Part shown: piece after piece, positions 28,915-54,262 of the stretch | Position numbering within the stretch: position 1 is the first letter of the stretch | Layout: each line of letters starts with the position of its first letter | Origin: a virus | Virus record (IMG/VR): IMGVR_UViG_3300010149_000026 | Location: 1-54,854 of that record | Length of the DNA stretch: 54,854 bases | Direction: 5' to 3' (one strand) | Notes under the pieces: model-generated | What the model saw: the letters and a program-made list of their open reading frames with translations, nothing else | Told to the model about the DNA's origin: nothing | The model's database searches: none | Position numbers and translations under genes: made by a program

Positions 28915-30144
28915 ATGGATCTACAACAACTATTAAATGAACACGTATTTGATCCAAAGAATACGCAGAAGATGTATGAACTCGCATGTGAGTATGATAG
29001 ACTAGAACAGGGCGCTGCCGCTGTGTCATTCTACATTCGTGCGGCAGATCTTGAAGAAAAAGATAAACTACTCCAGTACAGGTGTATGATTGGTGCAGCT
29101 CTATGTTATCAAAGACAGGGTGGACGTAATCACACAGTAACTGGTCTTTTACAACATGCTATTGCACTTCAACCTGCCAGACCAGAGGGACATTTCTTTC
29201 TCGCCAAACATGGAGAGAATATGAGTGACTGGAGAGTTGTTCTTGTACACGCAAACTTAGCGTTACAGTTTAGAAACGCACCAGACGTTGGTATTGACTG
29301 GCCAGGCGACAGAGAGTTGTGGTATCTTCAGGCACATGCAACTTGGCAGATTTCTGGTGTGGAGAGTGGTCGTCGATTGTTCTTCGACTTGATATATAGA
29401 AAAAGATATAAGAAAGATGATACTTACGACGAGTTTAAAGAATACATTCTTCAAGTCCTAGAAAAGATTGGTTGGCCAGATGCAGTCCCATATCAACTAG
29501 GAGATCAAAAGAGATTTGCAGCTCCGTTTAATGGAATCGAATCTATTGAAGAGAACTACTCTAAACACATGCAAGACATGTTTGTTCTCGCTTGTTTAGA
29601 TGGTAAACGTAATGGTACATATCTTGAAATTGGATCTGGTAATCCTTTTACTCACAATAACACTGCACTACTTGAAACTAAGTTCGACTGGAAAGGCATA
29701 TCTATAGAATGGTCTGCACATCTTGCATATGATTTTGCACAACGCAGAAACAACACTATTATCAATGCAAACGCTTTGGAAATTGACTTTGAGGATCTAC
29801 TCGTAAAACATTGTATGGAAAGTACCATTGACTTTCTTCAGATAGATACTGATGAAACTTCTATACAAGTTCTAAGGAACATGCCGTTTGGAAGATTTAA
29901 ATTTAATGTCGTTCAGTTCGAACATGATGCTTACAGACTTGATCCCGCCATTCGTGCAGAAGCAAGACAGATAATGCATGATAATGGTTATGAGATTGTT
30001 TGTCAAAACCTTTGTTTCAGGCCAGGCGTTCCTTACGAGGATTGGTTTGTTCATAAGTCTATTGCAAACAAAATTCCACAGAGACTTTTCTCTGCATCAG
30101 AAAGTAACTTCTTTTGGGAATATCTCGTCAACAGAGAGGAGTAA
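28915..30144 (+). CDS. TPR-FkbM-type SAM methyltransferase
   Basis: 409 residues. I prefer the ATG at 28915 (GAGAGGG close upstream) to a GTG two codons earlier that overlaps the previous stop. Residues about 1-190 are helical with TPR-like character (A-x-x-Y-x-R-A-A-D-L, A-L-C-Y-x-R-Q-G). Residues about 210-400 are a Rossmann methyltransferase: GTYLEIGSGNPF (about 234-245) is motif I, the adenosylmethionine-binding glycine loop, followed by the acidic end of strand 2 in I-S-I-E-W, and a late D-x-L-Q-I-D-T-D-E segment typical of FkbM enzymes. FkbM enzymes O-methylate sugars or polyketides. Between a glycosidase-like and a nucleotidyltransferase gene, a sugar O-methyltransferase is the best guess. 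Confidence 0.65.
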   Translation: MDLQQLLNEHVFDPKNTQKMYELACEYDRLEQGAAAVSFYIRAADLEEKDKLLQYRCMIGAALCYQRQGGRNHTVTGLLQHAIALQPARPEGHFFLAKHGENMSDWRVVLVHANLALQFRNAPDVGIDWPGDRELWYLQAHATWQISGVESGRRLFFDLIYRKRYKKDDTYDEFKEYILQVLEKIGWPDAVPYQLGDQKRFAAPFNGIESIEENYSKHMQDMFVLACLDGKRNGTYLEIGSGNPFTHNNTALLETKFDWKGISIEWSAHLAYDFAQRRNNTIINANALEIDFEDLLVKHCMESTIDFLQIDTDETSIQVLRNMPFGRFKFNVVQFEHDAYRLDPAIRAEARQIMHDNGYEIVCQNLCFRPGVPYEDWFVHKSIANKIPQRLFSASESNFFWEYLVNREE

Positions 30145-30920
30145 TGAATTTGAAAGTTGTTTTGGTATCGGGTGGATTTGATCCCCTACACTCTGGACAT
30201 ATTGAATACTTTAAAAAAGCACGTGCACTTGGTGATCATCTAATTGTAGGTATCAACAGTGATGCATGGTTGGAGAGAAAGAAGGGGCGTTCCTTCATGC
30301 CTGTCCAAGAACGTGCATCCATTGTTAAAGAATTATCATGTGTAGATAATATCTGTATCTTTACGGATGAGTATGATGCAGACGGTAGTTGTAAAAAGTT
30401 CGTGGAGGACATGTGTGAGGAATATAAGACAGATGATGTCATATTTGCGAATGGTGGAGATAGAACTTCGGGTAACATACCTGAGATGGAAGTTGAAGCT
30501 TCTAATCTATCTTTCCAATTCGGAGTTGGTGGCGAAGATAAAAAGAACTCTTCGTCTTGGATCTTAAAAGAATGGAAGAACCCAAGAGTAAATCGTAAGT
30601 GGGGAACTTATACTGTTCTTGATACAAACGGTTACTGGAGAGTTAAAGAACTTTCAATTGATGTAGGTAAGTCTCTATCAGATCAACGTCACTTCATTCG
30701 TTCAGAACACTGGCACATTGTTAGTGGTGAACTTAAAATGCAATTGGAGTTTGCGAACGAATACAAAACCTCAAAGATATATAAAAGAGGTGATAGTATT
30801 GACATTCCTGTTAGAACGTGGCATAAAGCAACCAATGTTGGTTTAGTTCCTGTCAAAGTTATCGAAGTATGGCAAGGAAATGAATTAAGTGAAGAGGACA
30901 TAGAACGCCGTCTATTATAA
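30144..30920 (+). CDS. Cytidylyltransferase-cupin fusion
   Basis: 258 residues; ATG at 30144 overlaps the previous stop (TAATG) behind AGAGGAG. Residues 1-140 are a nucleotidyltransferase of the glycerol-3-phosphate cytidylyltransferase / HldE type: V-S-G-G-F-D-P-L-H16-S-G-H19 carries the HxGH motif, and N-G-G-D-R-T follows later. These enzymes join CMP or AMP to a phosphorylated alcohol or sugar. Residues about 150-258 are a cupin like the C-terminal half of type II mannose-6-phosphate isomerases (K-W-G-x-Y, H-W-H-I-V-S-G, D-S-I-D-I-P-V-R-T-W-H). The fusion suggests activation and isomerisation or binding of one sugar phosphate by one polypeptide. It closes the sigma70-driven cassette. The substrate cannot be read from the sequence. 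Confidence 0.75.
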   Translation: MNLKVVLVSGGFDPLHSGHIEYFKKARALGDHLIVGINSDAWLERKKGRSFMPVQERASIVKELSCVDNICIFTDEYDADGSCKKFVEDMCEEYKTDDVIFANGGDRTSGNIPEMEVEASNLSFQFGVGGEDKKNSSSWILKEWKNPRVNRKWGTYTVLDTNGYWRVKELSIDVGKSLSDQRHFIRSEHWHIVSGELKMQLEFANEYKTSKIYKRGDSIDIPVRTWHKATNVGLVPVKVIEVWQGNELSEEDIERRLL

Positions 30921-42686: not shown

Positions 42687-44015
42687 ATGACACAGTCAAA
42701 CTATCAAAAACTTGTGGAAAAGTGGGGCCCAATCCTTGAGCACGAATCTTTTTCACCAATTGCAGATCAACACCGTAAAAGTGTAACTGCAACCATCCTT
42801 GAAAACACAGAGTCAGCTCTGCGCCAAGAGGGTGACGCTTCAGCAAACATGACTGCACTTCTTTCAGAAGCGCCTGCAAACGATGTAGGTACTGATGGCG
42901 GATTTACAGGTGCGGCAACAGACGCAGGGCCAGGAGCAGGTTACGATCCAGTACTTGTATCTTTGATCAGACGTTCTATGCCAAACTTGATTGCATATGA
43001 CATTGCTGGTGTACAGCCAATGACAGGCCCAACTGGTCTGATCTTCGCAATGCGTTCACGTGAGACATCTCAGTCAGGTACTGAGGTATTCCACGGTGAA
43101 GCAGACACTACCTTCGCAGGTGCAGGTGCAGAAGCCGGTTCAACTGGTGGTGCAGTTCCTAACACTTCAATCTTCGACACTGGTACTGGTATGACCACTG
43201 CCGCTGGTGAAGCATTGGGTGACGGCAACGGAACCAACTTTGCAGAGATGGCGTTCTCAATTGAGAAAGTAACAGTCGCTGCGAAAACACGTGCGTTGAA
43301 AGCGGAATACACCACTGAACTCGCACAGGATCTTAAAGCAGTTCACGGTCTCGACGCAGAGACAGAACTTGCGAACATCTTGCAGTCAGAAATTCTGACT
43401 GAAATCAACCGTGAAGTTGTACGTACAATCTACGGTACTGCTGTTGCAGGTGCTGCGGCAACTGCTGCTGCTGGTATCTTCGATCTTGACGTTGACGCAA
43501 ACGGACGTTGGTCAGTCGAGAAGTTCAAAGGTCTGATGTTCCAAATCGAACAGGAAGCAAACGCAATTGCAACTGCTACACGCAGAGGTAAAGGTAACAT
43601 TGTGATCTGTTCTTCAGACGTTGCATCTGCTCTGCAGATGGCAGGTGTACTTGATTACACTCCTGCTCTTAACAGCAACTCACTGGAAGTTGACACAACT
43701 GGTAACACATTCGCTGGTGTTCTTAACGGACGTTACAGAGTGTACATTGATCCATATGCTGGTTCAAACTACATGGTTGTTGGATACAAAGGTTCATCTG
43801 CATTCGATGCAGGTCTGTTCTACTGCCCATACGTACCACTACAGATGGTTCGTGCCGTGGGTGAGAACTCATTCCAGCCAAAAATCGGGTTCAAAACTCG
43901 TTACGGTATGGTATCGAACCCATTCGCAGACGGTACTTCTGCTGCAACACAGGGTGCTCTTACACAGAACACCAACCAGTACTACAGAAGAGTTCGCATC
44001 AGCAACTTGTTCTGA
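42687..44015 (+). CDS. 23: Major capsid protein gp23
   Basis: 442 residues. L-V-E-K-W-G-P-I-L near the start, L-I-R-R-S-M-P-N-L-I-A-Y-D-I-x-G-V-Q-P-M-x-G-P-T-G-L-I-F, and the C-terminal F-Q-P-K-I-G-F-K-T-R-Y-G are gp23 hallmarks. Residues 59-61 (L-S-E) followed by Ala62 form a gp21 cleavage site at nearly the same place as the Glu65/Ala66 cut of T4 gp23, so the mature protein should begin A-P-A-N-D. It is shorter than T4 gp23 (521), as in other marine T4-like phages. Strong ribosome-binding site and own late promoter; terminator hairpins follow directly. Confidence 0.95.
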   Translation: MTQSNYQKLVEKWGPILEHESFSPIADQHRKSVTATILENTESALRQEGDASANMTALLSEAPANDVGTDGGFTGAATDAGPGAGYDPVLVSLIRRSMPNLIAYDIAGVQPMTGPTGLIFAMRSRETSQSGTEVFHGEADTTFAGAGAEAGSTGGAVPNTSIFDTGTGMTTAAGEALGDGNGTNFAEMAFSIEKVTVAAKTRALKAEYTTELAQDLKAVHGLDAETELANILQSEILTEINREVVRTIYGTAVAGAAATAAAGIFDLDVDANGRWSVEKFKGLMFQIEQEANAIATATRRGKGNIVICSSDVASALQMAGVLDYTPALNSNSLEVDTTGNTFAGVLNGRYRVYIDPYAGSNYMVVGYKGSSAFDAGLFYCPYVPLQMVRAVGENSFQPKIGFKTRYGMVSNPFADGTSAATQGALTQNTNQYYRRVRISNLF

Positions 44016-44030
44016 TCCAAATAAAAAGAA

Positions 44031-44048
44031 GGGCGGATATAACCGCCC
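44031..44048 (-). terminator. Terminator for minus-strand transcripts
   Basis: Six-bp perfect stem GGGCGG/CCGCCC with a six-base loop. Read on the minus strand it is followed by TTCTTTTTATTT, the U-rich tail needed for intrinsic termination; on the plus strand no U-run follows. It would end the minus-strand operon. Confidence 0.65.
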
Positions 44049-44067
44049 CACTTTACTACCAGAATTG

Positions 44068-44094
44068 GGGAGATCTTCGGATCTCCCTTTTTTT
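44068..44094 (+). terminator. Intrinsic terminator after gene 23
   Basis: Perfect 8-bp stem GGGAGATC/GATCTCCC closed by a UUCG tetraloop and followed by seven T. A textbook rho-independent terminator for the late head operon. Its T-run overlaps the stop codon of the convergent minus-strand gene. Confidence 0.92.
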
Positions 44095-44272
44095 ATCGAC
44101 TAACTAATGGCATGTTGTTTTGACTATCGTGGTAATCACCTGATTCATAATAGTCTCGACACGCAGATTCCTTTACCATCATACCGTTCTTCATACGATA
44201 TGTGACAATCTCTCTACGAACAACACCGTCTGTGTCTGCATCGAATGCGGCTTTAAATGGGCCGTCTGTCAT
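44093..44272 (-). CDS. Small conserved phage protein, 59 aa
   Basis: 59 residues, M-T-D-G-P-F-K-A-A-F-D-A-D-T-D-G-V-V-R-R then a Tyr/Asp-rich tail. AAGGAG precedes the ATG, which overlaps the stop of the upstream gene (ATGA). Coding is supported by the overlap architecture shared with all neighbours and by a protein-like composition. It is the last gene of the minus-strand operon; its stop lies in the T-run of the opposite-strand terminator. No known function; small proteins of this type occur next to gene 23 in marine T4-like phages. Confidence 0.7.
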   Translation of the reverse strand: MTDGPFKAAFDADTDGVVRREIVTYRMKNGMMVKESACRDYYESGDYHDSQNNMPLVSR

Positions 44273-44505
44273 CTTTCACTTCTCCTTACTGTAACGAAAC
44301 TTCCTTCTGGAGAATGAATTGCGTTTATCAACTCTTCCCACATCTGAGGATTGATTTCTAATATATTCGGTATATCACTTTCATCATCTTCTTGGCAAAT
44401 ATAGACGAGGTCATCATATGCGAGAATTTTTAAATCACCATGATTACCTGTGTCGTCTAATATTGTAATTGCCACTTCATCCATATCAAACTCGACGGTG
44501 TACAT
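44269..44505 (-). CDS. Conserved small acidic phage protein, 78 aa
   Basis: 78 residues: Y-T-V-E-F-D-M-D-E-V-A-I-T-I-L-D-D-T-G-N, then Y-D-D-L-V-Y-I-C-Q-E-D-D and a C-terminal P-Q-M-W-E-E-L-I-N-A-I-x-x-P-E-G. This pattern is familiar from uncharacterised proteins encoded beside the capsid gene of marine T4-like phages. No signal peptide or membrane segment. The stop overlaps the next start by four bases; the start overlaps the stop of the membrane gene upstream (TAATG). Function unknown. Confidence 0.75.
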   Translation of the reverse strand: MYTVEFDMDEVAITILDDTGNHGDLKILAYDDLVYICQEDDESDIPNILEINPQMWEELINAIHSPEGSFVTVRRSER

Positions 44506-44654
44506 TACATCTTCCTTCTATATTCACAATATCCCTGCACCCATCCCTCATATATTCCATATGCAAGAATAGGGCCGATAAATGGGACGAAAAAGAAATT
44601 CATCATAAACCACGAACAAATTATTGCCGCAACAATGTCATACCATTGTATCAA
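44505..44654 (-). CDS. Small membrane protein, 49 aa (TTG start)
   Basis: 49 residues with one or two hydrophobic stretches (I-V-A-A-I-I-C-S-W-F-M-M-N-F-F-F-V-P-F-I-G-P-I-L) and a basic C-terminus (E-Y-R-R-K-M). No ATG gives the full frame; a TTG with AGAGG nine bases upstream is the best start, and that site lies inside the end of the pseudoazurin gene, suggesting coupling. The stop overlaps the next ATG (TAATG). It would sit in the inner membrane beside the exported pseudoazurin's gene. Function unknown; the non-ATG start lowers certainty. Confidence 0.55.
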   Translation of the reverse strand: MIQWYDIVAAIICSWFMMNFFFVPFIGPILAYGIYEGWVQGYCEYRRKM

Positions 44655-44667
44655 GTTCTATTACCTC

Positions 44668-45084
44668 TTATAGATCAGCCAATAATGCCTTTAGTTTCTT
44701 TTTTGATTTACCCTTTACTTTAGCTTTTGAGATATCGTTATCTCCATCACCCACAACTACAATGGCAATCATACCCATTGACTTGTGTGGTGAACACTGA
44801 TACAAGTAAACGCCTGGCGTGTCAAATGTAATTGCCACTTCTTTATTAAGTTTTGATTTCTTTGGTGCATCCCATCCATCTGGGCCAGCAATGAATTCTA
44901 CATTGTGTCCTTTTGAAGTTGGAACCCACGTGATTGTATCACCTACATCAATACGTGCGATATCTTCACTGTATACCATCTTTGCACCATCGTCACGTTT
45001 ATTCAACATTTCAATAGTCATATCTTCAGCGTATGCTGATGTTGCGAAAAGTGCCATAAGACTAGCAGTAATTAGATTTTTCAT
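44668..45084 (-). CDS. Pseudoazurin, secreted type 1 copper protein
   Basis: 138 residues; ATG six bases after AGGA. Residues 1-19 form a signal peptide ending T-S-A-Y-A|E-D, so the product should be periplasmic. The four type 1 copper ligands are present: His60 in K-G-H-N-V-E-F, then Cys97, His100 and Met105 in YQCSPHKSMGM. With the signal removed, Cys, His and Met fall at 78, 81 and 86, the numbers of pseudoazurin of Alcaligenes faecalis, and a lysine-rich helical C-terminus follows as in that family. Pseudoazurins carry single electrons to nitrite or nitrous oxide reductases, cytochrome oxidases or peroxidases. It lies among phage-type genes, with overlaps typical of the operon, so it appears to be a phage-borne auxiliary metabolic gene rather than host DNA at a junction. 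Confidence 0.9.
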   Translation of the reverse strand: MKNLITASLMALFATSAYAEDMTIEMLNKRDDGAKMVYSEDIARIDVGDTITWVPTSKGHNVEFIAGPDGWDAPKKSKLNKEVAITFDTPGVYLYQCSPHKSMGMIAIVVVGDGDNDISKAKVKGKSKKKLKALLADL

Positions 45085-45098
45085 TTTGTTTCCTATCT

Positions 45099-45305
45099 TT
45101 ATTTCTTTACATTAAGATTGGACGGATTATATTGTTCGCCATTATAGGCAGGATAGGTGTCGTCCTCTACCCCAAAGTTACACGATGCCACAATCAATAA
45201 GAATGCGATTGAGGCATAGGTAGTTCTTTTAGACCATAATATAAAACCTTCAAATGTTTTCTCCGCTTCTTTCTGAGCGGCTGCACGTACTTCATCATCG
45301 GTCAT
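45099..45305 (-). CDS. Membrane protein resembling aa3 oxidase subunit IV
   Basis: 68 residues, immediately upstream of the pseudoazurin gene in the same operon. A charged helix of about 16 residues leads to E-K-T-F-E-G-F-I-L-W-S-K and one membrane segment (about residues 29-45), then a polar tail. The arrangement acid/Glu-x-T-F/Y-x-G-F before a single helix is that of the small bacterial aa3-type cytochrome c oxidase subunit IV found mainly in Alphaproteobacteria. The tail of about 25 residues after the helix is longer than in that family. A V-A-S-C sequence resembles a lipobox, but it lies 40 residues in, at the end of the helix. The start overlaps the previous stop (ATGA). The assignment is by motif only. 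Confidence 0.5.
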   Translation of the reverse strand: MTDDEVRAAAQKEAEKTFEGFILWSKRTTYASIAFLLIVASCNFGVEDDTYPAYNGEQYNPSNLNVKK

Positions 45306-45481
45306 AGTGATCTCGTTCCATAATAAGATCGATAGACTTCTGCGAGTTCTTGTTGGTCAGTAGACTCTTGAACTACGTAGTCGGTTTTATCAATTCTTGT
45401 TCCATCTGCAATTGCAATAGCATCTTCATATCGTGATGCGATTGCAATAATTTCACCAGATTTTTTTCTAACGATATGCAT
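45302..45481 (-). CDS. Small soluble protein, 59 aa
   Basis: 59 residues starting M-H-I-V-R-K-K-S-G-E-I-I-A-I-A-S-R-Y-E-D-A-I-A-I-A. I chose the ATG overlapping the upstream stop (TAATG) over an in-frame TTG six codons earlier. The beta-beta-alpha-like opening recalls small uncharacterised proteins of marine phages. It ends by overlapping the next start (ATGA). No catalytic motif; function unknown. Confidence 0.65.
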   Translation of the reverse strand: MHIVRKKSGEIIAIASRYEDAIAIADGTRIDKTDYVVQESTDQQELAEVYRSYYGTRSL

Positions 45482-45651
45482 TAGTTCAGACCAAAGCAAG
45501 GTAAGATGTTGACATTGCAGTAACGTCCATATTCTTCAAGTCCTACCATTGCCATTAACATTAATACTGGTACAACAGCAATCATTAAAACAACAACTAA
45601 GAATGCCCAACCCAAACCTTTGGTTGTGCAATAGTTTGTTTGTTCACTCAT
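45481..45651 (-). CDS. Single-span membrane protein, 56 aa
   Basis: 56 residues: a short polar start with Cys8, one long hydrophobic segment (about residues 14-37, A-F-L-V-V-V-L-M-I-A-V-V), then a C-terminal stretch with two more Cys (Y-C-N-V-N-I-L-P-C-F). The ATG at 45651 overlaps the upstream stop by eight bases (ATGAGTGA) and has GGTGGCGAG upstream, so it is preferred over an ATG eight codons earlier. Paired Cys after the membrane segment could form a periplasmic disulfide. Function unknown. Confidence 0.68.
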   Translation of the reverse strand: MSEQTNYCTTKGLGWAFLVVVLMIAVVPVLMLMAMVGLEEYGRYCNVNILPCFGLN

Positions 45652-46015
45652 GCTCGCCACCGTTTGCTCGTCCATTATATTTACGGCCTGATTTCAAAAT
45701 GTTGTTGAGTGATTCTGGATTGTTTTCTGCTTGACGGAATGTTATAACAGTAATTGTAATACCACTGATAAGCAGTAAGTGAAAGGCCGCACTGATACCA
45801 AACGCAAGATAACTTCCTACCATCAGGGCAAAGATACCACTCCAGATAAAGAATAGACACTGAAAGATCATGTGTCCTACCATAGGGTCTAGATTACGTA
45901 GTGGTGACTTTTCTATTGTCATGACGCTGTCCCACATATCACGTGGAATACTTGCAATTTCAGTTAGTGTGGTTGCCCATCCAATGGGTCTCTGTGTGTT
46001 CTGTTTTTTTGACAT
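45644..46015 (-). CDS. Two-span membrane protein, 123 aa
   Basis: 123 residues: a cytoplasm-like N-terminal half, then two adjacent hydrophobic segments (about 46-70 and 73-92), and a polar Asn/Gly-rich tail. The start follows the GapR-like gene by two bases (TAATC-ATG); the end overlaps the next gene. It belongs to a run of small membrane proteins around the pseudoazurin gene. No family recognised; a membrane anchor, transport accessory or envelope protein are all possible. Confidence 0.7.
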   Translation of the reverse strand: MSKKQNTQRPIGWATTLTEIASIPRDMWDSVMTIEKSPLRNLDPMVGHMIFQCLFFIWSGIFALMVGSYLAFGISAAFHLLLISGITITVITFRQAENNPESLNNILKSGRKYNGRANGGEHE

Positions 46016-46017
46016 GA

Positions 46018-46266
46018 TTACATTCCTATTGCTTTCATATATGTTTCCAACAACGCCTCTTCATTAGCGATGTCATCTGCATCACGTTTCCTTAGTGATA
46101 CAATTTTTTTGAGGATCTTAGGTTCGTATCCTCGTGCCTTTGCTTCTTCGCATACAGATTTTACATCTCCACGAAGATCAAGTAACTGTTCATCTAAACG
46201 TTCGAGACGTTCGATGAAAGACATGACTTCTGCCTCAGCACTATCGAAGTCTTGTTCATCACTCAT
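46018..46266 (-). CDS. GapR-like (DUF2312) nucleoid protein
   Basis: 82 residues. After an acidic lead, F-I-E-R-L-E-R-L-D-E-Q, D-V-K-S-V-C-E-E-A-K-A-R-G-Y-E, I-L-K-K-I-V-S-L-R-K-R-D-A-D-D and the end L-L-E-T-Y-M-K-A-I-G-M follow the GapR/DUF2312 pattern. GapR of Caulobacter and relatives is a coiled-coil dimer or tetramer that clamps overtwisted DNA ahead of polymerases and helps topoisomerases. Family members are largely alphaproteobacterial or from their phages, which supports the host inference. The ATG at 46266 overlaps the previous stop by eight bases (ATGAGTGA); an in-frame GTG lies three codons earlier. The likely role is phage DNA topology or replication/transcription support. Confidence 0.85.
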   Translation of the reverse strand: MSDEQDFDSAEAEVMSFIERLERLDEQLLDLRGDVKSVCEEAKARGYEPKILKKIVSLRKRDADDIANEEALLETYMKAIGM

Positions 46267-46519
46267 CGTCTTCACGCTCTTCCATTTCCCACATTTCAGA
46301 TTCGTGAGAGTTGATTAGATTACTGAATCCAATTTGGAATGGTGAGTATTCATTCAGTTCATGATCACGGAAGTTTTCAATTTCACGGATCTGTTCTTCG
46401 GTAATTTCAGTGATCTCTGAAACACCATAATGTTCAAACACATATTCATAAACCGTATCAGTAACTTCCGATTCAATGCGTTCTTCCCATTTATAAATTC
46501 GAGGCCATTCAAACGACAT
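46259..46519 (-). CDS. Small acidic protein, 86 aa
   Basis: 86 residues, strongly acidic, helical, ending E-E-R-E-D-D-E; contains repeated E-I-T-E-I-T-E-E-Q. AAAGGAGA lies six bases before the ATG. The start overlaps the end of the sulfotransferase gene by 11 bases. No membrane segment or motif. Acidic small early proteins of phages often bind host proteins or mimic DNA, but nothing specific supports that here. Function unknown. Confidence 0.65.
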   Translation of the reverse strand: MSFEWPRIYKWEERIESEVTDTVYEYVFEHYGVSEITEITEEQIREIENFRDHELNEYSPFQIGFSNLINSHESEMWEMEEREDDE

Positions 46520-47942: not shown

Positions 47943-48200
47943 TCAATCAAATTCTGGTGGGACGTTCTTATCTATTAGATTTCCCCGAGCAGTTTCATAT
48001 TCTTTAGTGGGATGTTCTTCTTTCTTTCGAATTACCAAACCATTTGTGCCATATTCTACCACAAGAGTATCACCAATGTCAAGCCCTAAAGATTCCATTA
48101 TTATAGGTGGAAGTTTCATAATGACATTGTCTGGATCACCTTCGATTTCTTCGAAGAGATCCTCTGCCTTTATAGTACCCACTTCAGCTGGTTTGACCAT
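47943..48200 (-). CDS. AbrB/SpoVT-like DNA-binding protein
   Basis: 85 residues. The middle (about residues 26-60) reads V-I-M-K-L-P-P-I-I-M-E-S-L-G-L-D-I-G-D-T-L-V-V-E-Y-G-x-x-G-L-V-I-R-K, the swapped-hairpin AbrB pattern (beta, L-P, short helix, L-x-L-x-x-G-D, two beta strands). Such proteins dimerise and bind AT-rich DNA as regulators or as MazE-type antitoxins. No toxin gene is evident next to it, which favours a transcriptional regulator. It overlaps the upstream gene by 17 bases. The palindromic promoter elements at 49485 and 50144 would be natural binding sites to test. Confidence 0.72.
   Translation of the reverse strand: MVKPAEVGTIKAEDLFEEIEGDPDNVIMKLPPIIMESLGLDIGDTLVVEYGTNGLVIRKKEEHPTKEYETARGNLIDKNVPPEFD
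48053..48082 (-). promoter_or_regulatory. Possible internal sigma70 promoter
   Basis: On the minus strand: GGGCTTGACATT, an 18-base spacer and TAGAAT, inside the AbrB-like gene. The -35 context equals that of the three intergenic promoters of this operon. It would serve the genes from 47931 downward. It also encodes L-D-I-G-D in frame, so chance is possible. Confidence 0.4.
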
Positions 48201-49445: not shown

Positions 49446-49474
49446 ATTCTACGACATTTTAGAGGCAATGTCAA
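49446..49474 (-). promoter_or_regulatory. Sigma70-type early promoter P1
   Basis: Minus strand: TTGACA (49474-49469), 17 bases, TAGAAT (49451-49446), 31 bases before the 49415 ATG. A 21-bp palindrome lies 10 bp upstream of the -35 box. Confidence 0.82.
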
Positions 49475-50105: not shown

Positions 50106-50133
50106 AATATACACGTTTTTCTGGGAATGTCAA
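50106..50133 (-). promoter_or_regulatory. Sigma70-type early promoter P2
   Basis: Minus strand: TTGACA (50133-50128), 16 bases, TATATT (50111-50106); TATTAG with an 18-base spacer is an alternative. The sequence around the -35 box, GGGCTTGACATTC, is the same as in P3. Confidence 0.78.
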
Positions 50134-50418: not shown

Positions 50419-50446
50419 AATATAATCATTTTTTCAAGAATGTCAA
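50419..50446 (-). promoter_or_regulatory. Sigma70-type early promoter P3
   Basis: Minus strand: TTGACA (50446-50441), 16 bases, TATATT (50424-50419). It starts the whole minus-strand block. Upstream of it the palindrome seen at P1/P2 is reduced to a degenerate AT-rich tract. Confidence 0.8.
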
Positions 50447-53530: not shown

Positions 53531-54262
53531 ATGTCAGAAGTTTGTCACAAAATGGCCAAGTTGGCCGCTTTAGCGTACCTTGACGGTAAAGAAGCAAAAC
53601 CACGTATGAAAGAACTTGGATATACTGGACACAAGTTTTTCGAAAAGGGTGGTGCACAATGCCACGCAATTTGGAATAAAAACGAATATGTACTCGCATT
53701 TAGAGGAACAGAACCCTCAGAACTTTCAGATGTTCTTGCAGATCTTAATGCGATTCCACGTGGCGCAATGACTCACGGTTTAGTCCACTCAGGTTTTAGA
53801 GGAGAGACTGATAAACTCTGGAATCCAATCATGAAACATTGGGGCGGAGATAACGGTAAGACTAAAGGACACCAAGGTAAAAAGATCTATATTACTGGTC
53901 ACTCACTTGGTGCAGCAATGGCAACGATTGCGACTTCTCGTTTAGAGGAAGCAGTAAAGGTAGAACAGTTAACAACTTTCGGTTCACCCAGAGTTGGTAC
54001 ACGTAAATTCGTTAAACACATCTCAACTCCACACATGAGATATGTAAACAATAACGACATTGTAACAAAAGTTCCATTGTTTATTATGGGATACAAACAC
54101 CACGGTAAGTTACAGTATATAAACTTTTATGGTAATATCCGTAAGTTAACTACGTGGCAGATGATCAAAGATAAGTGGAGAGGATGGAAATCAGGAATAC
54201 TCGACGGTGCAAAAGATCACGGCATGGATAACTATGTCGCCGCAACGAAGGGTTTAGTGTAA
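53531..54262 (+). CDS. Class 3 lipase (alpha/beta hydrolase)
   Basis: 243 residues; AGGAG before the ATG. V-L-A-F-R-G-T-E is the family's oxyanion-side strand; I-T-G-H-S125-L-G-A-A is the nucleophile elbow; Asp176 in N-N-D-I-V-T-K-V-P and His230 in D-H-G-M-D-N-Y complete a lipase class 3 triad. H-S-G-F and F-G-S-P-R-V-G are also typical. The family cleaves triglycerides or phospholipids. No signal peptide is present, so it is cytoplasmic, released at lysis, or carried in the virion. Position between exported proteins and two membrane proteins suggests attack on host membranes, perhaps for lysis. Confidence 0.88.
   Translation: MSEVCHKMAKLAALAYLDGKEAKPRMKELGYTGHKFFEKGGAQCHAIWNKNEYVLAFRGTEPSELSDVLADLNAIPRGAMTHGLVHSGFRGETDKLWNPIMKHWGGDNGKTKGHQGKKIYITGHSLGAAMATIATSRLEEAVKVEQLTTFGSPRVGTRKFVKHISTPHMRYVNNNDIVTKVPLFIMGYKHHGKLQYINFYGNIRKLTTWQMIKDKWRGWKSGILDGAKDHGMDNYVAATKGLV

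Follow-up and report, generated by a model that had tools for sequence, protein, structure and literature searches.

A pseudoazurin-family gene in a putative respiratory gene cassette of marine T4-like phages

The linear virus contig analyzed here, taken at its full length of 54,854 bases (hereafter the window), encodes a predicted secreted member of the pseudoazurin family in a T4-like phage contig. With moderate confidence, we favor the explanation that this protein is a working pseudoazurin-type electron shuttle within a small mobile respiratory cassette carried by T4-like phages of marine Rhodobacteraceae. The evidence consists of the identity and conservation of the protein, its linkage to a gene resembling a subunit of aa3-type cytochrome c oxidase, and the apparent exchange of copper and heme carriers beside a DoxX-like membrane protein.

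The gene occupies exactly positions 44668-45084 on the minus strand, starts with ATG and encodes a blue copper protein of 138 amino acids, with a predicted signal peptide at about residues 1-19 and putative ligands H60, C97, H100 and M105. The preliminary description had read it as a complete pseudoazurin, and Pfam, NCBIfam and PDB searches all agree on the family, ranking blue copper proteins or pseudoazurins first. PF00127 was matched at E 3.2e-16 (60 bits; cut-off 21.2) and the NCBIfam pseudoazurin model TIGR02375 at E 9.4e-31 (106 bits, missing the curated equivalog cut-off of 109.85 by about 4 bits), and the PDB search placed pseudoazurins at the top (E 4e-25), followed by amicyanin and plastocyanin. 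The profile comparison of pseudoazurin and plastocyanin families that had been proposed gave the same outcome: among the NCBIfam cupredoxin families pseudoazurin was best, ahead of amicyanin (E 4.4e-12) and plastocyanin (E 7e-9), and the plastocyanin model TIGR02656 was matched with 36 bits, below its cut-off of 87.85. This score, together with the distant match to cyanophage P-RSM6 described below, rules out cyanophage plastocyanin as the family of the window protein. One of six further phage members exceeded the TIGR02375 cut-off (113.6) and the other five scored 97-105; among cell relatives, a marine Rhodobacteraceae protein (L085, 101.7) and a Pelagibacteraceae relative of the window protein (L091, 100) lie below it, and the HTCC9565 protein (L106, 119.8) lies above. 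Because the window protein misses the equivalog cut-off, we keep to the designations pseudoazurin-family and pseudoazurin-type.

By reading of the sequence, the hydrophobic N-terminus is followed by an AYA/E site compatible with a signal peptide. Cleavage after AYA places Cys97, His100 and Met105 at mature positions 78, 81 and 86, precisely as first described, and the N-terminal ligand His60 at position 41. All four ligands expected of a type 1 copper site (His, Cys, His and Met) are in place, and the C-x2-H-x4-M spacing is kept. That they are intact had been noted from the window alone; across phages they never change, either in an alignment (15 of 15 sequences) or among distinct proteins (38 of 38). 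An AlphaFold2 model built from 15 phage sequences predicts, with modest confidence (mean pLDDT 66.7; residues 1-37 below 50), a cupredoxin fold of strands and a C-terminal helix at residues 126-137. Structure prediction had been suggested as a check, and the model points the same way as the profiles, its PDB matches at ranks 1-27 all being pseudoazurin structures.

The T4-like character of the contig, already proposed in the preliminary description, is supported by the major capsid protein gp23, a convergent neighbor at 42687..44015 (+) matching PF07068 at E 1.5e-146, by the gp20 portal (E 7.4e-156) and by a matched sheath gene. Misassembly of host DNA, the concern raised at that stage, is ruled out by synteny shared with four other IMG/VR contigs of differing lengths (L001-L004), in which the gene is 100% identical and the neighbors on both sides are 98-100% identical. 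In a plasmid scan, 394 of 72,556 records matched pseudoazurin, every one below 60% identity, so plasmids offer no near source. Elsewhere in the window, a class 3 lipase is encoded at 53531-54262 (+) (PF01764, E 5.1e-21), with relatives in several cassette phages, and an apparent fusion of a nucleotidyltransferase, heptose adenylyltransferase-like, with a cysteine dioxygenase-like part lies at 30114-30920 (+). A GapR-like DNA-binding protein (PF10073, E 2.8e-24) is encoded at 46018-46275 (-); GapR is a nucleoid protein type of alphaproteobacteria.

The occurrence of the gene in other phages had been left as a question, and two IMG/VR scans answer it, with 336 and 362 stretches that encode pseudoazurin relatives. 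The best 80 contigs, identical in both scans, were examined; dropping contained pieces left 73 loci, 72 of them with a pseudoazurin ORF, in 35 sequence lineages, and the locus counts are not independent, since many are near copies of a single phage. Among 50,697 named phage records, the sole match was cyanophage P-RSM6 (two records), a distant PetE with 26.5% identity. One contig (L048/L164) carries an IMG number type unlike the others and may derive from an isolate or a single cell. The phage pseudoazurin genes evolve under purifying selection: across 38 distinct genes, with pairwise comparison restricted to pairs with dS 0.1-1.5, median dN/dS was 0.088 for the mature part (515 pairs) and 0.396 for the signal part (349 pairs), and therefore the signal peptide drifts whereas the copper domain is constrained. 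Host derivation, a true phage genome and selection, which together characterize an auxiliary metabolic gene, are found here in the tree placement given below, the phage context and the dN/dS of 0.088, respectively.

Capsid lineage does not explain the distribution of the cassette, because pseudoazurin is absent from 16 larger contigs with related gp23 (among the best 80 of at least 600 matches, a set of fragments with no control signal); one of these, L276, the contig of L380, has a COX4-like match. Gp23 was seen in just 2 of 22 larger pseudoazurin records. At the other loci the T4-like status rests on helicase, primase, clamp loader and DNA polymerase families, read from one protein sampled at each of five loci, including one with gp23.

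The pseudoazurin gene belongs to a minus-strand run in which the genes from 46015 down to pseudoazurin are tightly packed, overlapping or at most 14 bases apart. We counted profile matches over the 73 non-redundant viral loci found through pseudoazurin in the best 80 contigs. Directly upstream, 14 bases away, lies the gene for a 68-aa protein resembling aa3-type cytochrome c oxidase subunit IV (PF07835; 45099..45305, -), hereafter COX4-like, matched in 58 of the 73 loci. It is preceded by genes for a 65-aa protein of no assigned function (45302..45499, -; 39 loci), with no Pfam family at E <= 1 and no PHROG below E 0.1; a 64-aa protein with one strongly hydrophobic stretch by hydropathy (45481..45675, -; 49 loci), with no Pfam family above its cut-off; and a 123-aa protein with two hydrophobic stretches (45644..46015, -; 48 loci), for which neither Pfam nor PHROG gave a family at E <= 1. 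Immediately downstream of pseudoazurin follow a 49-aa protein with one hydrophobic stretch (44505..44654, -; 5 of 73), a 78-aa protein of no assigned function and no Pfam match (44269..44505, -; 7 of 73) and a 59-aa protein, likewise of no assigned function (44093..44272, -; 12 of 73), the final gene of the run, which ends at a terminator-like stem of 7 pairs, 6 of them G-C, with a T run (44030..44049, -).

These small genes travel with pseudoazurin across phages, even where little or nothing else resembles the window. The linkage is not just an artifact of the query, because it also holds when the search starts from the COX4-like gene, with pseudoazurin within 3-kb flanks in 62 of the best 80 of 394 relatives, or from the DoxX-like gene described below, with pseudoazurin within 3-kb flanks in 69 of the best 80 of 288 relatives. 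Against our preferred explanation, the association is incomplete on both sides. A recognizable COX4-like gene is missing in 15 of the 73 loci found through pseudoazurin, and the cassette also exists without the carrier: pseudoazurin was not seen in the piece for 18 of the best 80 COX4 loci, some of these pieces ending nearby, and in seven of the 18 read by eye no periplasmic carrier was seen, although this absence is not proven because several pieces stop close to the gene. One such locus is L379 (3001-3356, +), closely related to the window and, by eye, adjacent to gp23: here the COX4-like gene runs straight on to a 49/50-aa gene, similar by eye to the 49-aa gene of the window, and no pseudoazurin gene separates the two. 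This reads as a clean gain or loss of the carrier.

The COX4-like protein of the window matches PF07835 at E 1.1e-5 with 25.9 bits, above the gathering cut-off of 22. When 21 members, the window's included, were scanned singly, 20 matched this family at E <= 0.1, and no other family was matched by more than one member. When the viral profile was applied to eight cell loci with 200 ORFs, the eight true subunits IV came first (at least 9.1 bits; all others at most 3.1); a PDB-wide profile search gave three sequences within E 1, all aa3 subunit IV. Several features nevertheless weigh against our preferred explanation. PF07835 is short, some members fall under its cut-off (L013 with 21.6 and L417 with 19.5, just below it; L183 gave no match), and the PDB matches have E 0.2-0.58. 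A loose pattern finds a lipobox-like Cys behind the hydrophobic stretch in all but one of 28 distinct sequences, so the COX4-like proteins may be lipoproteins, and the window copy lies below a strict hydropathy threshold for a membrane helix. After the hydrophobic stretch, the phage form continues into a conserved C-terminal tail of about 25 extra residues with CN[FS]G...YNGEQY, the first motif present in 27 and the second in 26 of the 28 distinct sequences. A true aa3 subunit IV is encoded in 8 of 11 cell genomes searched, and no COX4-like gene was detected (E 1e-4) at any of 59 pseudoazurin loci from the genome collection.

A further frequent neighbor is a DoxX-like membrane protein of 133-135 residues, present in 28 of the 35 pseudoazurin lineages from the best 80 contigs and in 17 of the 22 larger pseudoazurin records. 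DoxX is named for a subunit of a thiosulfate:quinone oxidoreductase. The gathering cut-off of PF07681 (23.6) was exceeded by four of five members (L186 36, L428 31.3, L511 27.8, L499 25.9), with L016 below it at 20.7, and a fold model of the protein was unreliable (mean pLDDT 50.5). Neither the window nor the 119-kb record of its phage contains the DoxX-like gene, which counts against our preferred explanation. Eleven DoxX loci among the best 80 have no pseudoazurin in the piece, and in five of them (L498-L502, of which L498 and L502 are cut off) a cytochrome c gene stands directly behind DoxX; in L511 and L512, read by eye, no cytochrome is found beside DoxX. The phage cytochrome c, predicted to be secreted, matches PF00034 at E 7.6e-10; its nearest NCBIfam model is cytochrome c550 CycA, at E 1.5e-12 yet with 47.8 of 240 bits, and one such c550-like gene lies at L499 3402-3764 (+). 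A dedicated cytochrome c scan gave 21 viral loci (L517-L537, the five DoxX contigs included), 13 of them with DoxX and three of these 13 also with the two-stretch membrane gene. None of the 21 has pseudoazurin in the piece, and none has a COX4-like gene, the latter another point against the explanation that we prefer. In the named phage records, one query each for the cytochrome, COX4-like and DoxX-like proteins gave no match. Apparently, a single carrier slot beside DoxX is filled by either a copper or a heme protein, and this shared position is the strongest hint of respiratory electron transfer.

Various other genes were noticed around the cassettes. A DUF1127 protein (L170 6816-7037, +; PF06568, E 2.5e-12) and a second small family (L155 9802-9990, +) each occur near the cassette in 13 of the 35 lineages, and single loci have other redox or stress genes near cassette genes, namely PsiE (L186 9357-9761, +), a ferredoxin (L402 4774-5112, +) or a glutaredoxin (L512 2777-3001, +). 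Two loci also have heme-synthesis genes close by, which fits the preferred explanation. A 5-aminolevulinate synthase is encoded near the pseudoazurin cassette at L187 11570-12757 (-) (TIGR01821, E 5.2e-168). At L417 4130-4945 (+), a coproporphyrinogen III oxidase (PF01218, E 9.1e-81) lies downstream of a COX4-like gene with no pseudoazurin, and L418 has, by eye, a similar arrangement.

With regard to expression, the minus strand of the run holds four sigma-70-like promoters matching 11 of 12 positions: TTGACA-16-TATATT at 50419..50446 and 50106..50133, TTGACA-17-TAGAAT at 49446..49474 and TTGACA-18-TAGAAT at 48053..48082, all (-). The last lies within the ORF 47943-48200 (-), which encodes a MazE-type antitoxin domain (PF04014, E 4.4e-6). 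Shuffled sequences gave a mean of 0.17 such sites, and none of 300 shuffles reached four. The promoter claim depends on this strict threshold, which was picked after a looser scan that showed no enrichment (19 sites against 20.7 by chance); five more sites with 11 or 12 of 12 in the other 48 kb of the window also speak against an argument for early promoters. The motif TATAAATA, the T4 late promoter, occurs 10 times against 1.98 in shuffles; seven of the 10 sites precede a plus-strand gene by 27 to 61 bases, whereas the minus-strand run is free of the motif. This arrangement suggests that the run is expressed early by the host polymerase.

The host is likely a member of the marine Rhodobacteraceae, as judged from sequence comparison, and the heterotrophic alphaproteobacterium supposed in the preliminary description is accordingly probable. 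A 124-column alignment of 85 cell and 37 phage sequences gave a tree with many unresolved forks, in which all phage sequences group with one MED-G08 Rhodobacteraceae protein (95/90), and this group stands beside Ascidiaceihabitans-type Rhodobacteraceae and SAR116 (94/89). The MED-G08 MAG sequence (L083) is placed inside the phage group, which may reflect either transfer back to a host or mis-binning. The best cell partner of the 37 phage sequences was L084 or L085 for 36 and L083 for one, and the mature window protein is 80% identical to L085. Permuted tmRNA genes were found in 10 of the best 80 viral contigs (e.g., L149, L170, L172, L185); eight of these have the tag ANDNRAPAMAIAA, from just two pseudoazurin sequence types. 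The same tag occurs in one genome of the L085 family (L231), 19 tags being readable among 30 loci, and the genome of L085 itself has the tag ANNNRAPMAMAA. Three SAR11 genomes have ANES-type tags, and G010 gave no tmRNA match and hence no SAR116 tag for comparison. Because the window holds no tmRNA or tRNA, its own host assignment rests on relatives. SAR116 is a possible host, and SAR11 stays among the candidates given the GC of 0.33-0.41 of the viral loci.

Near chromosomal copies are rare, which counts against a simple host origin. In the L085 family, 26 of 80 genomes have any match, the near one being just that of L085's own genome (75%) and the next reaching 50%, and G080 is without any; in the HTCC9565 family, 20 of 79 genomes match, with a best identity of 53%. 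The gp23 ranking, headed by Sinorhizobium phages (65%), is of little use for naming the host because cyanophages trail closely. Two genome-collection matches (L082, L087) are, by eye, phage contigs within bacterial bins, and the MAG with L087 (G005) shows eight alpha-tmRNA matches, seven of them far weaker, perhaps from co-binned phage contigs.

From these data we infer copper binding, electron partners, expression timing and an effect on infection as follows. The pseudoazurin would reach the periplasm by secretion, be loaded with copper and accept electrons one at a time from the bc1 complex or from dehydrogenases of the periplasm and deliver them to a terminal oxidase, working beside or in place of the host cytochrome c. 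The subunit IV-like protein would sit in the inner membrane and join or modify the host aa3 oxidase, and the DoxX-like protein, where present, would act in the membrane, possibly on the quinone pool. Early reading from host-type promoters could sustain or redirect respiration as host gene expression fails, and a phage that halts host expression early might benefit from bringing those components of the chain that are small or costly in iron. A blue copper protein requires no heme export and maturation. A functional objection to this scheme is that pseudoazurin of Paracoccus is described, in the available part of PMC12848317, as a donor to nitrite, NO and N2O reductases and not to aa3 oxidase.

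More tentatively, and in our estimate with somewhat less than an even chance, the cassette may be modular and rewire aerobic respiration in marine heterotrophs: an exchangeable carrier slot, held by pseudoazurin in most phages and by a c550-like cytochrome c in others, would be combined with the DoxX-like protein and often with a modified aa3 subunit IV, whose tail may dock the carrier. Such an exchange would be a copper-for-iron swap of the plastocyanin/cytochrome c6 kind, and the cassette a respiratory counterpart of cyanophage photosynthesis genes. This extended reading is weakened by the COX4-like gene, which the pieces of all 21 cytochrome loci lack and which occurs elsewhere without a carrier.

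A different source of electrons is conceivable, although we regard it as improbable: the pseudoazurin might accept electrons from a host sulfite dehydrogenase of the SoxCD or SorT type and feed them into the chain; sulfite from sulfonates or thiosulfate would then yield energy to the infected cell or do it less harm. This is a serious rival because some chromosomal relatives adjoin SoxC or SorT-like genes and because a Sinorhizobium pseudoazurin belongs, together with a cytochrome c, to the sorT operon (PMC3511301, in the part available). SoxC is above its cut-off beside the relatives L094 and L095, accompanied by SoxZ in L094 (above cut-off) and SoxY in L095 (122.1 of 125, just under), and L091 has a pair of genes resembling SorT (541 of 570) and SorU (67 of 100), each short of its cut-off. 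Of 11 genomes from candidate hosts or their relatives, 5 also have SoxC above its cut-off, and the name of DoxX itself recalls thiosulfate oxidation. On the other hand, no sulfur enzyme was found among the phage neighbors scanned, and the nearest chromosomal relatives, L084-L086, are by eye not beside sulfur genes. The sulfite-linked role need not exclude our preferred explanation, as the electrons would still finish at the oxidase.

Still less probable is a role in copper buffering or redox protection, in which the protein would be a periplasmic copper binder or oxidant scavenger, its neighbors unrelated membrane or lysis proteins, and the COX4-like protein a small lipoprotein whose likeness to subunit IV is due to chance or to distant ancestry. 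The lipobox-like Cys (27 of 28) and the phage-only tail would suit this role, as would the several cassette genes with no known family and the COX4-like genes with no recognized carrier; however, cytochrome c beside DoxX in five loci without pseudoazurin fits electron transfer and not copper storage, and 20 of 21 COX4-like members point to PF07835, with eight true subunits IV at the top of the viral profile's ranking.

Least likely, and not supported for the phage protein, is a shuttle feeding host nitrite or N2O reductase in low-oxygen water in the style of Paracoccus or nirK-bearing SAR11: this is the classical role of pseudoazurin (PMC12848317, available part, where the Paracoccus protein is described as anaerobically expressed), the Benguela SAR11 pseudoazurin sits between nirK and cbb3 oxidase genes (PMC12816887, available part), and NirK is carried by G080, a genome with the same tmRNA tag as the most frequent phage tag. 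Against it, profile libraries found no nitrite, NO or N2O reductase among the cassette neighbors scanned, one of the 11 genomes from candidate hosts or their relatives (some incomplete) has NirK above the cut-off, and the partner conserved beside the gene looks like a subunit of an oxygen-reducing enzyme, the aa3 oxidase. The earlier suggestion that the gene extends phage electron-transfer functions to respiration or denitrification is thus supported in its first part and not in its second.

Under the preferred explanation of a respiratory cassette, phages of marine heterotrophs seem to apply a cyanophage-style strategy to aerobic respiration, by means of a conserved mobile gene set that is found in hundreds of related viral stretches and has no close named phage record. 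If true, infection would alter how much oxygen Rhodobacteraceae use, how much ATP they gain and how much copper and iron they need, and the shared copper/heme slot would allow one to ask whether the choice of carrier tracks iron or copper supply.

Cyanophages are the textbook viruses with electron-transport genes. Phage electron carriers are thus already known, and it is the phage pseudoazurin and the respiratory cassette that seem to be new; in the open-licence literature we found no report of a phage pseudoazurin, a phage COX subunit IV or such a cassette. Cyanophage plastocyanin (petE; P-RSM6, PHROG 515) resembles the window protein in being a small secreted blue copper carrier of T4-like marine phages and, by inference for both, a host electron-transport gene used in infection. 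It differs in sequence (26.5% identity; PHROG 515 at E 1.9e-7), the window protein being pseudoazurin-type, and in setting, as the host of the window phage is probably heterotrophic and the neighboring genes look respiratory rather than photosynthetic. With the pseudoazurins of alphaproteobacteria (Paracoccus, Achromobacter, Sinorhizobium and some marine Rhodobacteraceae), the window protein shares the family, the ligand set and the C-x2-H-x4-M spacing, whereas its gene is phage-borne and stands beside a COX4-like gene. Similarly, the COX4-like protein corresponds to aa3 subunit IV (PF07835; 1qle chain D) in its N-terminal part and hydrophobic stretch, whereas eight cell proteins end right after the helix and the phage form adds its tail of about 25 residues. 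The vAlaS phages, as presented in the available part of PMC11480375, are comparable in that phage support of heme and respiration is proposed, and the cassette contig L187 also has AlaS; unlike the present phages, their marine contigs are assigned to pelagiphages, and the term plastocyanin does not appear in the main text of that article as available. Respiratory genes have been seen in the viral fraction before, in a 2012 report on Indian Ocean viromes with viral cbb3-type cytochrome oxidase and NADH dehydrogenase sequences (PMC3474794, available part); those, as far as that part tells, are large catalytic subunits tallied in virome sequences, whereas the genes described here encode small carrier and accessory proteins, kept in conserved order on phage contigs.
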